A stretch of DNA of 14,313 bases from Pararhodospirillum photometricum DSM 122 (lineage in GTDB: Bacteria > Pseudomonadota > Alphaproteobacteria > Rhodospirillales > Rhodospirillaceae): positions 930,939 to 945,251 of the forward strand of contig NC_017059.1 in assembly GCF_000284415.1 (NCBI RefSeq), given 5' to 3'. The translations under genes and the position numbers were made by a program. Position 1 is the stretch's first letter. Every line of letters begins with the position of its first letter. The notes beneath the pieces were generated by a model. The model had not been told where the DNA came from. It made no database searches and was given only the letters and a program-made list of their open reading frames with translations. Of this stretch, positions 1,689 to 6,643 are shown one piece after another.

Positions 1689-1769
1689 TCTCGAGGTAGA
1701 TCGAGCGGGAATGGTCTTTCATGATACGCTGGGCTCGTTACAGGAATTCATGACGCGGTATTGGTTTTC

Positions 1770-3305
1770 ATGGCAGACGGATTTCAGGATCGTTTTTCAG
1801 GGCCGGTGACGGCTTTTCAGGATCGGGCGTTGCCGGAACGGGCGGTCCTGACGGGCTATGCCGCGTTGATCGATGCCTTTCAGCTTGCGGTCCCGCTGCC
1901 CCGAACGCTGGCCGCCATCGGCTCCCAGCACAAACTCTATGACCGGGAGGGCTGGCGCTTGTTCACCCCCCGGCACGCTCGCCCCGCCAGTCTTGAGGGG
2001 CACCTGACCTTTGCCCTCAAATACGAGGGGGTGGATCTTCTTGTGCTCAAGGCGCTCTTCAAGGCCGTCGGCCCCGGCCCGATCATGGCCTTGGTCAAAG
2101 CCACGCCCACCGGGAGCTATGCCCGGCGTCTCTGGTTCTTGTACGAATGGCTGATCGGCACCCCCCTCGACCTGCCGAATGCCACGGCGGGAGCCTATGT
2201 CGAGGTCCTCGATCCCCGACAGCAATGGGGCGCCGCCGCCCTCCTCTCCTCCCGGCACCGGGTGAAAAACAATCTGCCGGGAACGCCGGCCTTCTGCCCC
2301 CTGGTGTTCACCACCGACAAGCTCCGCGCTTTCCAGGCGCTTGACCTCGCCGACCAAGCCCGGGCCACCCTCGCCAGCGTGCCAAAGGATTTGCTGGCGC
2401 GAACAGCCGCTTTTTTGTTGCTCAAGGATTCGAGATCCAGCTTCGCCATTGAACGGGAGTATCCGGCTCATGACCGCGTCCAGCGCTGGGGCAAGGCCAT
2501 TGGCGAAGCGGGGCGGCGCGCTCTGGATCTGGACGAGTTGTTGCGGCTGCAAAGAATCGTCATCGGCGACGCCCGATTTGTCCGGCTGGGACTGCGCAAG
2601 GAAGGCGGTTTTGTCGGGGAACACGAACGCAATACCGGCGCCCCCTTGCCCGACCATATCAGTGCCAAGCCAGAGGACCTCCTTTCCCTGATGGAAGGGA
2701 TCACCCGGTTCAGTCGAACAGCCGGTCGCACCCTTGATCCGGTCATTGCGGCGGCCGGGCTGGCCTTTGGCTTCGTCTATACCCATCCGTTTGAAGACGG
2801 AAATGGGCGCCTACATCGCTACTTGATCCATCATGCCCTGAGCGAGCGGGGCTTCAATCCGCCAGACATGGTGTTTCCGGTCTCCGCAGCCATTTTGGAC
2901 CAACTGCATGCGTACCGCCTCACCTTGGAGAGCTACTCGGCCCGACTCCTGCCGCATATCCAATGGGAACCAACACCCACGGGCAATGTCCATGTCCTCA
3001 ACGACACGGCAGATTTTTATCGCTACTTCGACGCCACACCCCATGCCGAGTTTCTGTATGAGTGCGTTCAGCGGACCATTGAAGTCGATCTCCCGGCGGA
3101 AACCGCTTATCTCAAAAACTATGATGCGTTTCGGGACGGGGTGGCGGCGCTGGTGGACATGCCGGAGCGGACCCTTGAGAGGCTGCTGCGTTTCCTTCGG
3201 CAGAATAACGGGGTCCTCTCGAAGCGGGCACGAGACAACGAATTCCGAGCCCTCACCCCGGAGGAGGTCCAAAAAATCGAGGACCTGTATCAGAGCGTCT
3301 TCTGA
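1770..3305 (+). CDS. Fic-domain protein (putative AMP transferase)
   Basis: This protein of about 511 residues has the full Fic core HPFEDGNGRLHR starting at His339. It contains the catalytic His, the acidic metal ligand and the GNGR anion loop, so it is predicted to be active in transferring AMP or a similar group to a target protein. The flanking regions fit a recognisable ~500-residue Fic family. The N-terminal region contains RHRVKNNLPGTPAFCPLV. The helix before the Fic core contains S224-F-A-I-E228, the position of the autoinhibitory (S/T)xxxE(G/N) motif. The C-terminus ends in a small helical domain (LSKRARDNEFRALT). The ATG at 1770 is preferred over TTG at 1761, but neither has a good Shine-Dalgarno sequence. 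No antitoxin partner lies next to it. Target and partner are unknown. Confidence 0.88.
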   Translation: MADGFQDRFSGPVTAFQDRALPERAVLTGYAALIDAFQLAVPLPRTLAAIGSQHKLYDREGWRLFTPRHARPASLEGHLTFALKYEGVDLLVLKALFKAVGPGPIMALVKATPTGSYARRLWFLYEWLIGTPLDLPNATAGAYVEVLDPRQQWGAAALLSSRHRVKNNLPGTPAFCPLVFTTDKLRAFQALDLADQARATLASVPKDLLARTAAFLLLKDSRSSFAIEREYPAHDRVQRWGKAIGEAGRRALDLDELLRLQRIVIGDARFVRLGLRKEGGFVGEHERNTGAPLPDHISAKPEDLLSLMEGITRFSRTAGRTLDPVIAAAGLAFGFVYTHPFEDGNGRLHRYLIHHALSERGFNPPDMVFPVSAAILDQLHAYRLTLESYSARLLPHIQWEPTPTGNVHVLNDTADFYRYFDATPHAEFLYECVQRTIEVDLPAETAYLKNYDAFRDGVAALVDMPERTLERLLRFLRQNNGVLSKRARDNEFRALTPEEVQKIEDLYQSVF

Positions 3306-3398: not shown

Positions 3399-3475
3399 TG
3401 GCGCGCCCGAGAAGATTCGAACTCCTAACCTTCTGATCCGTAGTCAGATGCTCTATCCAGTTGAGCTACGGGCGC
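3399..3475 (-). tRNA. tRNA-Arg (anticodon ACG), copy 3 of the transcript
   Basis: The minus strand folds as a complete 77-base tRNA. The acceptor stem is GCGCCCG/CGGGCGC, the D stem is GCUC/GAGC, and the anticodon stem is UCUGA/UCAGA. The anticodon loop is CUACGGA, so the anticodon is ACG (A34 normally edited to inosine, reading CGU/CGC/CGA). The T loop is UUCGAAU. The discriminator is G and CCA is encoded at 3401-3399. By eye it is identical to the two copies at 3511 and 3632. It is the last gene of the array and is followed by the terminator at 3370-3342. Confidence 0.97.
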
Positions 3476-3510
3476 AACCTCAGGGACAACCGCGAAAACC
3501 GATGGGGCAA

Positions 3511-3587
3511 TGGCGCGCCCGAGAAGATTCGAACTCCTAACCTTCTGATCCGTAGTCAGATGCTCTATCCAGTTGAGCTACGGGCGC
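3511..3587 (-). tRNA. tRNA-Arg (anticodon ACG), copy 2 of the transcript
   Basis: This has the same 77-base sequence and cloverleaf as its neighbours, including the encoded CCA (3513-3511). It is separated by 35 bp from the downstream copy and 44 bp from the upstream copy. The two spacers are unlike each other, so the array is a set of duplicated genes whose spacers have diverged or were never alike. No promoter is needed between copies if they are cut from one precursor. Confidence 0.97.
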
Positions 3588-3631
3588 CTTGCACACAGGT
3601 TTCTCACACCAAGACGCGGCCCTGAAACCAG

Positions 3632-3708
3632 TGGCGCGCCCGAGAAGATTCGAACTCCTAACCTTCTGATCCGTAGTCAGATGCTCTATCCAGTTGAGCT
3701 ACGGGCGC
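3632..3708 (-). tRNA. tRNA-Arg (anticodon ACG), copy 1 of the transcript
   Basis: This is the first gene of the array in transcription order, identical to the other two and with encoded CCA at 3634-3632. A candidate sigma-70 promoter with a GC-rich discriminator lies about 56-84 bases upstream (minus strand). That implies a short 5' leader of about 50 bases to be removed by RNase P. Confidence 0.97.
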
Positions 3709-4157: not shown

Positions 4158-5237
4158 ATGGCGTTCTTTAAACGGAAGCATTTTGTTCTCGTCACGGCTG
4201 GTCTCGCCCTGGCGGCGTGTCAGTCGGGGAACAACGTCCTGTTCCCCTCGCTCAGTGGGTCATCCGGTGGTTCGTCCATCGCCACCGCGATTGAGGGAGG
4301 GCCGCCGCAACTCGGCAGCACCTACTTTGAACCCGAGGGGGTCACTCCCGGCGAGCCCACGGGCACCTTCGTGGGACAGAAGGTTGTCTCCTATCGCCAG
4401 GAACTGGCCCAGCTTCAGGAAACCATTCGCAACCAGAACACCCAGTTGCAGGCCCTGCGCAATAAGACCATTCAAGATAGCAATGGCTACCACGAAAACG
4501 TGGCCAGCATGCGCGCGCGCTTGCAGCTCGGGACCACCCCGGGCAACCCCATTCTCATGAACCGGTGGGAAACGGCCCAGGCCCAGCTCAACACCATCAA
4601 CCAAGATGTGGTCTTGATGGATCAGTTGGGCCAGATGATCGCCGTCAACCAGGACACCGCGACCTATCTGTTGACCAGCGTGCGCTCGTCCTATGCCATC
4701 CCCGGCGCCGTGGACGAGGATCACCGCCAGTTGCGCATCGTCGAGGACGAGGCCCAGCAAACCGCCGTGCTCATCGACCGCTTGTTGAGCGAACTCAACT
4801 CCGATATCCGCCGCCAGACGGCCTACGTTGGCAACGAAAAGATCAACCTGGGCTCGTTGTCTACCGCCATTCGCAATGGTCAGCTCTTCGGCGCCGTTGG
4901 GCCCGATGGGTACAGCACCGCCCCGGTCATGGCCGGCCCCTCCCCGACCCCGGCCGCCATGGCGCCGTCGGGCGTGCCGCTGGTCGTCGTGCGCTTCGAC
5001 CAACCCAATGTCCGCTTCGAGGAGCCCCTGACCCGGGCCGCCCAGGCGGCGCTGGCCCGCAATCCCAACGCGTCGTTCTCGGTGGTGGCCGTTTCCAGCG
5101 GCGCCGCCGGCACCGCCGCCCGGGGCGCCGAACAGGTCGTGCGTGTGCTCTCGCGCCTTGGTATCCCGCCCGGGCGCATCACCCAGACGGCGACCACCAG
5201 CTCGGGCACCGACGAAGTCCGCGTTTTCGTCCGCTGA
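4158..5237 (+). CDS. conserved alphaproteobacterial lipoprotein, function unknown
   Basis: This 359-residue protein starts MAFFKRKHFV and has a type II signal peptide with lipobox LAAC, lipidated at Cys21. The mature protein is therefore a membrane-anchored periplasmic lipoprotein. Residues about 77-135 are Gln/Asn/Leu-rich (ELAQLQETIRNQNTQLQAL) and look like a coiled coil. A second helical stretch runs to about 240. An Ala/Pro-rich linker follows (~255-272). The last ~85 residues are a compact alpha/beta domain beginning VPLVVVRFDQPNVRFEEPL and ending in VRVFVR. From memory this C-terminal type recurs in Rhodospirillales envelope proteins and resembles small OmpA- or SPOR-like folds, but I cannot name it. 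The start is chosen by the signal peptide and by GGGGAAAAAAGG 9 bases upstream. A much longer upstream open frame is not used. Confidence 0.75.
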   Translation: MAFFKRKHFVLVTAGLALAACQSGNNVLFPSLSGSSGGSSIATAIEGGPPQLGSTYFEPEGVTPGEPTGTFVGQKVVSYRQELAQLQETIRNQNTQLQALRNKTIQDSNGYHENVASMRARLQLGTTPGNPILMNRWETAQAQLNTINQDVVLMDQLGQMIAVNQDTATYLLTSVRSSYAIPGAVDEDHRQLRIVEDEAQQTAVLIDRLLSELNSDIRRQTAYVGNEKINLGSLSTAIRNGQLFGAVGPDGYSTAPVMAGPSPTPAAMAPSGVPLVVVRFDQPNVRFEEPLTRAAQAALARNPNASFSVVAVSSGAAGTAARGAEQVVRVLSRLGIPPGRITQTATTSSGTDEVRVFVR

Positions 5238-5243
5238 GACCAA

Positions 5244-5288
5244 GGGGTCTGGGGAGGCCGTCCTCCTTCCCAGGCTTTCCCTTCGGGC
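5244..5288. repeat. palindromic intergenic repeat, copy C (degenerate)
   Basis: The 15-mer GGGGTCTGGGGAGGC (5244-5258) is identical to the one at 11663-11677. It is followed, as there, by a partly complementary arm (CTCCTTCCCAGGC) and by TTTCCCTTCG. The stem is imperfect here: CTGGG (5249-5253) still pairs with CCCAG (5269-5273). It begins 7 bases after the lipoprotein stop, so it may act as a terminator or mRNA 3'-end stabiliser. It also forms the upstream part of the exporter leader region. Confidence 0.55.
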
Positions 5289-5305
5289 CCGTGAGGGAGC
5301 ATCAC

Positions 5306-5335
5306 ATGGGAAACGCCAAGTCAGCAGACAGGTAA
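5306..5335 (+). CDS. nine-codon leader peptide (cmlA-type stalling leader) of the exporter
   Basis: The ATG at 5306 opens a complete ORF, MGNAKSADR then TAA, preceded by GAGGGAG with a 6-base spacing. From memory, the leader that lets chloramphenicol induce cmlA is MSTSKNADK, also nine codons. The two share Lys5, Ala7 and Asp8 and a basic residue 9. Chloramphenicol is known to arrest ribosomes best when alanine is the penultimate residue of the nascent chain, here Ala7 with codon 8 in the P site. The ORF ends directly against the hairpin at 5336-5364 and lies upstream of a phenicol-type exporter, as expected for translational attenuation. Induction is inferred. A 9-codon match alone could be chance, but the position supports it. 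Confidence 0.65.
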   Translation: MGNAKSADR

Positions 5336-5364
5336 GCCGCAACACCCAGGAGGGTCGTTGCGGC
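5336..5364 (+). promoter_or_regulatory. attenuator hairpin after the leader peptide
   Basis: GCCGCAAC (5336-5343) pairs perfectly with GTTGCGGC (5357-5364). Inside it ACCC (5344-5347) pairs with GGGT (5352-5355), with one bulged C. The apex holds a perfect AGGAGG (5348-5353). A ribosome stalled with leader codon 8 in the P site would cover roughly to 5342 and would open the lower stem, exposing the AGGAGG. A T-rich stretch (5370-5384) follows but not immediately, so an intrinsic terminator or transcription attenuator is a weaker alternative. No consensus promoter was found between the lipoprotein stop and the leader. Confidence 0.6.
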
Positions 5365-5444
5365 GTTCTGTTCGATTCTTTTTCTCCGATGACCGACCAA
5401 CAGACGCCGCCCGGTATCTTGATCGAGCGGACGATATCTCATGA
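5358..5444 (+). CDS. possible 28-codon coupling ORF between attenuator and exporter
   Basis: A TTG at 5358, four bases after the AGGAGG hidden in the attenuator, opens a frame of 28 codons. Its product would begin MRRSVRFFFSDD. It ends in TGA at 5442-5444, overlapping the exporter ATG as ATGA. The exporter itself has only a weak Shine-Dalgarno sequence (GAGCGGA, spacing 9). A coupled reading frame would explain how a hairpin 77 bases away could control it. TTG starts are uncommon and the spacing is short, so this may be fortuitous. Confidence 0.25.
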   Translation: MRRSVRFFFSDDRPTDAARYLDRADDIS

Positions 5445-6643
5445 GCACCCCGCGCCCGACATGGGCTTTCTCGCTGTCGGCGGCTTTGCTGCTGATGGCG
5501 CCTTTTGACGTTCTCGCGTCGCTAGCGATGGACCTGTATCTCCCCGTCGTTCCCGCGATGCCCGGTCTTTTGAACACGACACCCTTTCTCATCCAACTCA
5601 CCCTGAGCCTGTACATGGGGATGCTCGGTGTGGGGCAGGTGATCTTCGGCCCGATGTCGGATCGGCTGGGGCGGCGGCCCGTGCTGTTGGTCGGTGGATC
5701 GGTTTTCGTTGTCGCCTCTCTCGGCGCGGCGTGCTCGTCCACGGCCACGGCCTTTGTCGCGTTTCGTCTGCTGCAAGCGATGGGGGCCTCGGCGGCCTTG
5801 GTGGCGACCTTCGCGACGGTTCGCGATGTTTATGGCCGCCGGCCCGAGGGCGTTGTCATTTACGGTCTTTTCAGTTCGATTCTGGCTTTCGTGCCCGCCC
5901 TTGGCCCCCTTGTGGGCGCGTTGATCGGGGCGTGTTGCGGGTGGCGGGCGATTTTTGTGGTGCTGGCTGTCCTGGCCGTGCCGGCGCTGGTGAATGCTGG
6001 GGTCCAATGGCCTGAAACCCGCCCGGTGGTGGCCGCCAAGACGCGCCGCTTCGTTCTGCCGATCGTCACCAGCGTGGCCTTTTGGGTTTACACGCTGGGC
6101 TTCAGTGCCGGCATGGGCACCTTCTTCGTCTTCTTTTCAACCGCCCCTCGTGTGCTCATCGGCCAAGCGGGCTTTTCCGAGGTCGGCTTCAGCGTGGCTT
6201 TTGCGGGCGTCGCGGTCGTCATGATCGTGACAACCCGTTTCGCTAAAGCCTTTGTCGCCCGCTGGGGCATCGCGGGATGCGTTGCGCGCGGGATGGTGCT
6301 GCTTGTGTGCGGGGCCGTCTTCCTGGCTCTCGGTGAACTCTTCGGCTCGCCCTCGGTCCTGACCTTCATTCTGCCCATGGGGGGGATGGCGGTTGGCATT
6401 GTGGTTACGGTGTCCGTGACCGCCAACGGGGCCCTCGCACGGTTCGACGACACCGCCGGATCGGCTGTCGCCCTCTACTTCTGTTTCCAAAGCCTGATCG
6501 TCAGCCTCGCCGGGACGGGGGCGGTCGCCCTGCTCAACGGCGACACGGCATGGCCGATCATCGGGTACGCCGTGACGATGGCGGGGCTGGTCCTGGCGGG
6601 GCTGGCGCTGCTGCGCGTCCGTCCCGGCGAGCGGCCCGCCTGA
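5441..6643 (+). CDS. floR: FloR/CmlA-type phenicol exporter (MFS drug:H+ antiporter)
   Basis: This 400-residue protein is predicted to have 12 membrane spans and belongs to the Bcr/CflA (DHA1) group of MFS exporters. The start MSTPRPTWAFSLSAALLLMA, the MDLYLPVVPAMPG segment, the MFS signature GPMSDRLGRRPVLL (70-83), the antiporter motif C region (VPALGPLVGALIG), and FVFFSTAPRVLIGQA match my memory of FloR very closely and CmlA less closely. Length agrees with both (FloR about 404). FloR and CmlA pump chloramphenicol, and FloR also florfenicol, out across the inner membrane. The upstream leader and hairpin suggest inducible translation. No resistance-cassette landmark (59-base element, IS, integron) is seen, so it appears to be a resident chromosomal homologue. 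Substrate range is inferred from similarity, and the symbol is by resemblance. Confidence 0.85.
   Translation: MSTPRPTWAFSLSAALLLMAPFDVLASLAMDLYLPVVPAMPGLLNTTPFLIQLTLSLYMGMLGVGQVIFGPMSDRLGRRPVLLVGGSVFVVASLGAACSSTATAFVAFRLLQAMGASAALVATFATVRDVYGRRPEGVVIYGLFSSILAFVPALGPLVGALIGACCGWRAIFVVLAVLAVPALVNAGVQWPETRPVVAAKTRRFVLPIVTSVAFWVYTLGFSAGMGTFFVFFSTAPRVLIGQAGFSEVGFSVAFAGVAVVMIVTTRFAKAFVARWGIAGCVARGMVLLVCGAVFLALGELFGSPSVLTFILPMGGMAVGIVVTVSVTANGALARFDDTAGSAVALYFCFQSLIVSLAGTGAVALLNGDTAWPIIGYAVTMAGLVLAGLALLRVRPGERPA

Follow-up and report, generated by a model that had tools for sequence, protein, structure and literature searches.

How could a hairpin that lies far from a start codon control the gene behind it? 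The question is raised by the 14,313-nucleotide stretch of Pararhodospirillum photometricum DSM 122 analysed here (the window), in which a leader peptide and a hairpin precede a chromosomal exporter gene. Mobile floR genes on ICEs and plasmids are credited with a putative attenuator made of a nine-residue leader and an inverted repeat; in the accessible parts of PMC5890775 and PMC8256890 the stem-loop is said not to overlap the floR ribosome binding site, and PMC8256890 calls the hairpin's participation unclear. The earlier note on this DNA was therefore right, on the same passages, that attenuators on mobile resistance genes, floR itself included, are known. We consider it likely that the chromosomal FloR-like exporter is under the control of a translational attenuator that responds to drug, as those of ermC and cmlA do. 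Comparison of relatives reveals a conserved leader and a three-way complementarity, and by computation the floR start opens more cheaply when arm 1 is covered; drug-dependent arrest, induction and phenicol export by the FloR-like protein are inferred.

Leader, hairpin and exporter in the window

The leader ORF runs for nine codons from ATG 5306 to TAA 5335 and reads MGNAKSADR, with GAGGGAG upstream of the ATG. A hairpin begins straight after its stop (5336-5364), formed by GCCGCAAC/GTTGCGGC plus ACCC/GGGT with one bulged base. Both elements stand where the earlier note had placed them, and the combination of a short leader ORF, its own ribosome binding site and an ending in [A/S]-D-[basic] is that of CmlA/FloR attenuators. 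The features, including those defined by the comparisons below, are as follows.

5290..5305, plus strand: leader ribosome binding region, CGTGAGGGAGCATCAC before the ATG (from the sequence)
5306..5335, plus strand: leader ORF MGNAKSADR with stop TAA (from the sequence and relatives)
5336..5347, plus strand: arm 1, GCCGCAACACCC, directly 3' of the leader stop
5348..5353, plus strand: AGGAGG, in the loop and upper stem of hairpin 1:2
5352..5374, plus strand: arm 2; 5352-5364 pairs with arm 1, and 5360-5374 (GCGGCGTTCTGTTCG) alternatively with arm 3
5399..5414, plus strand: arm 3, AACAGACGCCGCCCGG; 5400-5410 pairs with arm 2 and 5407-5414 with arm 4
5423..5430, plus strand: arm 4, TCGAGCGG, at the putative floR Shine-Dalgarno position
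5441..6643, plus strand: FloR/CmlA-family exporter, 400 aa

The exporter scored 606.8 bits against NF033134 (CmlA/FloR; cut-off 450) and 680.4 bits against NF000219 (FloR), just below the cut-off of 700, and is accordingly called 'FloR-like'. A scan of 5100-5500 found no sigma-70-like promoter, and Rfam returned six matches at 5100-5600 with E of 0.26 to 9.4, all far under the gathering scores, so that no family could be assigned. The fold of 5280-5400 was only mildly better than that of shuffled sequences (z -1.78; 9 of 200 folded as well); the case therefore rests on relatives instead of on that fold.

The earlier note had treated the hairpin enclosing AGGAGG as the whole control. As a floR ribosome binding site AGGAGG was rejected: hairpin 1:2 lies 76 bases from the floR start, which is too distant, and the motif is particular to the window, occurring in 1 of 49 aligned rows. 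A related reading is that the single hairpin 1:2 masks AGGAGG and perhaps the start of a 28-codon ORF (TTG 5358) whose TGA overlaps the floR ATG, floR then being reached by coupled translation. The window accommodates this, since AGGAGG stands four bases upstream of TTG 5358 and no stop interrupts the frame before the ATGA overlap; L062 and the cmlA1 region (L098) likewise combine a start codon in arm 2 with an open frame, and in ermB an additional leader peptide reportedly plays a role (PMC8274638, in the part available). Among relatives, however, AGGAGG or any GGAGG-like site in the hairpin is confined to that 1 row of 49, ATGA or GTGA at the exporter start is missing in 26 of the 49, and most of the remaining 23 rows either have a stop in the frame or lack a start codon in arm 2, so we regard this single-hairpin reading as very unlikely.

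The leader peptide in relatives

A scan with one genome per species yielded 161 relatives, the best 80 of which were kept; together with the window copy and one same-family genome they gave 82 loci. L003 was dropped because it shares a contig with L073. The leader ORF was present in 80 of the 82 FloR loci, the window copy counted, although many of these 80 are near-identical mobile copies. All but one encode a nine-residue peptide 129-140 bases upstream of the exporter start; the remaining leader (L095) has six codons and a GTG start and reads MKSSDR. The stop is in place in 76 of the 79 nine-residue leaders and lost in three, reading CAA in L073 (P. oryzae), TAT in L063 and TAC in L088. In the P. 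oryzae locus (nt 2864-3003) the leader would extend to 22 codons, across arm 1 into arm 2. The two loci without a leader, from the Bacteroidota genera Chryseobacterium and Flavobacterium (L046 and L049), lack the attenuator in the 300 bases before the exporter start, where floR is joined to upstream DNA of an entirely different kind; L046 has there an ORF of ten codons that terminates at the floR ATGA.

With L095 left out of the residue count, 48 aligned rows gave 37 distinct leader DNAs and 28 distinct translations. Across the 37 DNAs, residue 7 is Ala in 30 and Ser in 7, residue 8 is Asp in 36 and Thr in 1, and residue 9 is Lys or Arg in 34. Codons 5, 6 and 8 differ in their third bases from leader to leader, a pattern that suggests selection on the peptide. 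The upstream alignment thus bears out the expectation that the leader codons would be conserved, and Ala/Ser-Asp at residues 7-8 in 36 of 37 is consistent with codon 8 as the natural arrest position, as had been suggested. The codon for Ala7 is GCA in all 30 distinct Ala leaders, though codons 6 and 8 vary. An RNA-level reason, namely that hairpin 1:2 might continue into leader codons 7-8 (pairing columns 20-23 with 68-71), was tested and found unsupported, since 84 to 132 of 500 shuffles, depending on the measure, did as well and the longer helix was not distinguishable from them.

The proposed arrest places Asp8 in the P site, with Ala7 penultimate and Arg9 next. On the catA86 leader MVKTDK, too, chloramphenicol arrests the ribosome when Asp occupies the P site and a basic residue is to follow, but there one hairpin masks the ribosome binding site directly, and the gene encodes a Gram-positive acetyltransferase. 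Chloramphenicol arrest is described as strongest with a penultimate Ala and weaker with Ser or Thr (PMC8987054, in the part available), a rule that all 37 distinct leader DNAs fit. The relatives form a natural leader-peptide set with either Ala or Ser at the position published as the chloramphenicol contact.

A translational attenuator in the cmlA integron cassettes was reportedly described by Stokes and Hall in 1991. Like the window, cmlA has a nine-codon leader ending A-D-basic, a hairpin directly after its stop and a second stem-loop at the start of a resistance gene of the same exporter family, and cmlA1 aligns with the window across the attenuator region. The cmlA1 leader MSTSKNADK, with which the earlier note had compared the window's MGNAKSADR in calling it cmlA-type, was confirmed from plasmid DNA. 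The two differ in leader sequence and in setting, the window gene being chromosomal and cmlA lying in a cassette, and the cmlA1 protein is ~50% identical to the window exporter. Two alternate stem-loops are described for cmlA in section 3.4 of PMC8876359.

A proposed four-arm switch and a modelled stalled ribosome

Alignment A1 comprised 49 of 52 distinct regions: L042, L046 and L049 were left out when the 52 were collected, and L024, L028 and L030 were left out of A1 as near-copies. A model of these 49 leader/attenuator regions (R1) found a single match of 118 bits in the 3.88 Mb genome (one contig), besides a 25-bit antisense match at the same hairpin, in a search that scored 8 of 944 first-look candidates. 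The 14 distant Bcr/CflA transporter loci (L004-L017), which lay outside the leader scan, were searched with R1 instead and gave no match (0 of 14 at E up to 1).

The hairpin directly after the leader stop is stable across A1, with columns 31-41 and 55-65 paired in 99.1% of cells (49 rows). Between it and the floR start lie two more conserved blocks, and the first of these, arm 3, is complementary to both arm 2 and arm 4. Arms 3 and 4 change in step: most Microvirga rows combine CCGCC-AAATG with CATTT-GAGCGG, whereas L062 has CCGCTT and AAGCGG, and L002 has CTGAT and ATCAAG. The relatives indicate a second hairpin, 3:4, and an alternative pairing, 2:3, rather than the AGGAGG hairpin as the entire control. 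The Shine-Dalgarno role of arm 4 is suggested by its position and by its alignment with AAGGAG of cmlA1; GAGCGG would be a weak Shine-Dalgarno sequence, which counts against the four-arm model.

Arms were exchanged among 26 of the 49 sequences, less than 90% alike, with 5000 permutations; because the rows are related, these permutation counts and the shuffle counts here are not probabilities. Cognate 3:4 arms paired at -11.30 kcal/mol versus -9.54 kcal/mol for exchanged arms, and 0 of 5000 permutations were as good; the corresponding counts were 12 for 1:2, 198 for 2:3 (23 for its lower part), and 4122 and 1570 for two control combinations. Moreover, the named pairs formed in 98.4% of cells for 1:2 with 3:4 (97.3% for 3:4) and in 98.0% for 2:3, values that none of 500 shuffles reached and that exceeded all slid versions.

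The pair counts, in contrast, are mixed as evidence for four arms. For 1:2 with 3:4, pairs with two-sided changes numbered 2 against 1.1, with 55 of 500 shuffles as high; 12 of the 13 two-sided cells came from one column pair (121-134), and the same pairs slid by +1 gave 14 such cells. Further pair types of 1:2 with 3:4 count against the model, 498 of 500 shuffles being as high, and 2:3 slid by -3 had a covariation score of 0.087, higher than the 0.074 obtained unslid. When A1 was folded with RNAalifold, hairpin 1:2 appeared together with part of 2:3, the covariation term being just -0.31; a single structure cannot display two exclusive pairings. The all-column pairing scan was exploratory.

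The comparisons also bear on transcription attenuation, in which the hairpin and the T-rich GATTCTTTTTCTCC at 5366-5386 would act as a terminator that a stalled ribosome prevents from forming. The T-rich stretch is present in the window, and attenuators of other resistance genes do work on transcription (PMC5418344, in the part available). A scan found no terminator-like site, however, the T-run is unconserved across the 49 aligned rows, and the conserved complementarity extends to the floR start. We therefore rejected a terminator and hold transcription attenuation to be highly improbable.

A ribosome with Asp8 in the P site should, from its footprint, shield the leader RNA as far as roughly nt 38. 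We modelled the stall in 28 rows by comparing folding from nt 39 with folding from nt 31, such that nt 31-38 were covered. Covering these bases raised P(2:3) in 28 of 28 rows (mean 0.01 to 0.69) and lowered P(3:4) in 27 of 28 (mean 0.79 to 0.24). The mean openness of the Shine-Dalgarno window was unchanged at 0.24 and rose in 12 of 28 rows, which counts against a simple reading and leaves the opening-cost measure as the one that argues for release. The opening cost of the floR start region dropped in 26 or 27 of the 28 rows, by a mean of 3.5 to 4.9 kcal/mol across 12 settings. The mean fall was 4.14 kcal/mol versus -0.23 with the stretch from arm 2 to the start shuffled, and 20 of the 28 rows beat all ten of their own shuffles. 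L025 (-0.01) and L062 (-1.28) did not respond, showing no gain in opening cost, and the cmlA1 region (L098), which has the same design, gave the largest computed fall, 9.31. For the window alone the computed fall was 1.4 to 5.6 kcal/mol depending on the setting, and P(3:4) without a ribosome was only 0.39. Together, the 3:4 arm swap, the paired cells and the opening cost point to a second structure that closes the exporter start, and the 2:3 pairs in nearly all cells with P(2:3) raised in every modelled row point to a mutually exclusive alternative.

Furthermore, an edge scan of 25 of the 28 rows (all but L047 and the non-responders L025 and L062) showed that the fall begins with the first free base at nt 33-35 and has disappeared by nt 61; only arrest near the leader's end would therefore work. 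The modelled limits agree with the earlier proposal that a ribosome at Ala7-Asp8 would open the lower stem.

In the proposed mechanism, without drug the leader would be translated and the ribosome released; 1:2 would then pair, and 3:4 would pair and close the region around the floR start. If chloramphenicol or a related natural compound is present, the penultimate Ala7 would cause the ribosome to stall while Asp8 occupies the P site, and the ribosome's leading edge would cover the base of arm 1. Arm 2, thus freed, would pair with arm 3, and the release of arm 4 would permit translation of floR. The four-arm model thereby answers the published point that the floR hairpin misses the floR ribosome binding site, and offers a concrete account of how a hairpin so far from the start could act. 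The arrangement corresponds to the segment scheme of ermC, itself a four-arm attenuator. In ermC-type systems, too, leader arrest decides whether the RNA keeps the start of the resistance gene closed or leaves it open (PMC5418344, in the part available), but erythromycin is sensed and an rRNA methylase controlled, and we claim no sequence likeness.

Alternatively, the drug might stabilise the mRNA, the stalled ribosome shielding the transcript and the arms mattering less. Mobile floR mRNA does increase with drug (PMC5890775 and PMC8256890, which cite Lang et al.), and erm expression is reported to track mRNA stability (PMC5118997), as far as the accessible parts of these papers go; stabilisation nevertheless leaves the species-by-species match of arms 3 and 4 unexplained. 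As the explanation in place of the four-arm switch it is very unlikely; it may operate in addition to the switch.

The published mobile floR attenuator, in the parts of the papers available, has one hairpin, whereas comparison here adds a second hairpin and the 2:3 alternative; it was published from ICEs and plasmids, whereas the element here precedes FloR genes on contigs from numerous alphaproteobacteria. A literature search confined for the most part to papers outside subscription returned no account of a 2:3/3:4 switch for floR and no description of the element before chromosomal alphaproteobacterial genes. The proposed attenuator thus resembles systems already described, and the mechanism it suggests for floR is fuller.

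Origin of the exporter gene and its probable attenuator

The earlier note had called the setting apparently native. The GC of the exporter locus does match its surroundings, but the gene is rare and its neighbours differ in the two nearest carriers. A FloR-type gene occurs in 3 of 41 near relatives. In a class-wide draw of 385 genomes, gene and element were both rare, each being found in 1 of 385, the window's own genome. In the same-genus and same-family carriers, floR alone of the ORFs around it matches the window, with no synteny, and the exporter gene itself may have moved between hosts.

The attenuator sensor, judged from the sequences compared, looks older than the mobile lineages. In a midpoint-rooted protein tree of 68 sequences, from which L066 was dropped (22-aa translation), the window stands on a long branch within a well supported clade of 37 rows (100/97) that includes mobile FloR. 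By name 26 of these 37 are alphaproteobacterial, though several of the 26 nearly duplicate mobile genes. Proteins from Rhizobium and Microvirga whose genes have a leader of this type fall outside the FloR clade, and CmlA is furthest. The tree sample, the best 80 of 161 relatives of an alphaproteobacterial query, is itself biased towards this picture. The suggestion that the locus shows where this control came from holds insofar as mobile FloR sits, in the tree, within a group of FloR proteins that share its leader and are mostly alphaproteobacterial. In L066 (Mesorhizobium tianshanense, nt 2985-3001) the ATG after the attenuator starts a reading frame of only 22 codons that differs from the frame of the remaining exporter gene, which reflects either a broken gene or a sequence error.

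This nesting of mobile FloR suggests that the widespread florfenicol-resistance switch may have been inherited from chromosomal ancestors of the window's kind. For the CmlA/FloR family as a whole, we lean towards a single ancient four-arm chloramphenicol sensor whose origin lies on bacterial chromosomes, probably those of alphaproteobacteria, and predates mobilisation. Mobile floR and cmlA would have inherited this sensor with the exporter, and parts of it would have been lost in single mobile lineages: the upstream region was replaced on the two Bacteroidota contigs, the element is partial on a Bibersteinia plasmid, and the L025 type has no predicted switch. The comparison indicates that a widespread resistance gene was already under inducible control when it was mobilised. 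The L022-type element occurs on 2220 of 72,556 plasmid records.

In Comamonas testosteroni NFYY023 (L027, nt 2866-3003) the cmlA leader MSTSKNADK precedes a floR gene, with the cmlA/floR junction inside the attenuator. On Bibersteinia trehalosi pCCK13698 (L107, nt 553-694) the element before floR is only partly preserved (63 bits with R1), and the DNA match begins downstream of the leader and arm 1. In the window itself, three tandem tRNA-Arg (ACG) genes lie on the minus strand at 3399-3708, 1.6 kb before the leader, adjoined by a Fic-domain gene at 1761-3305.
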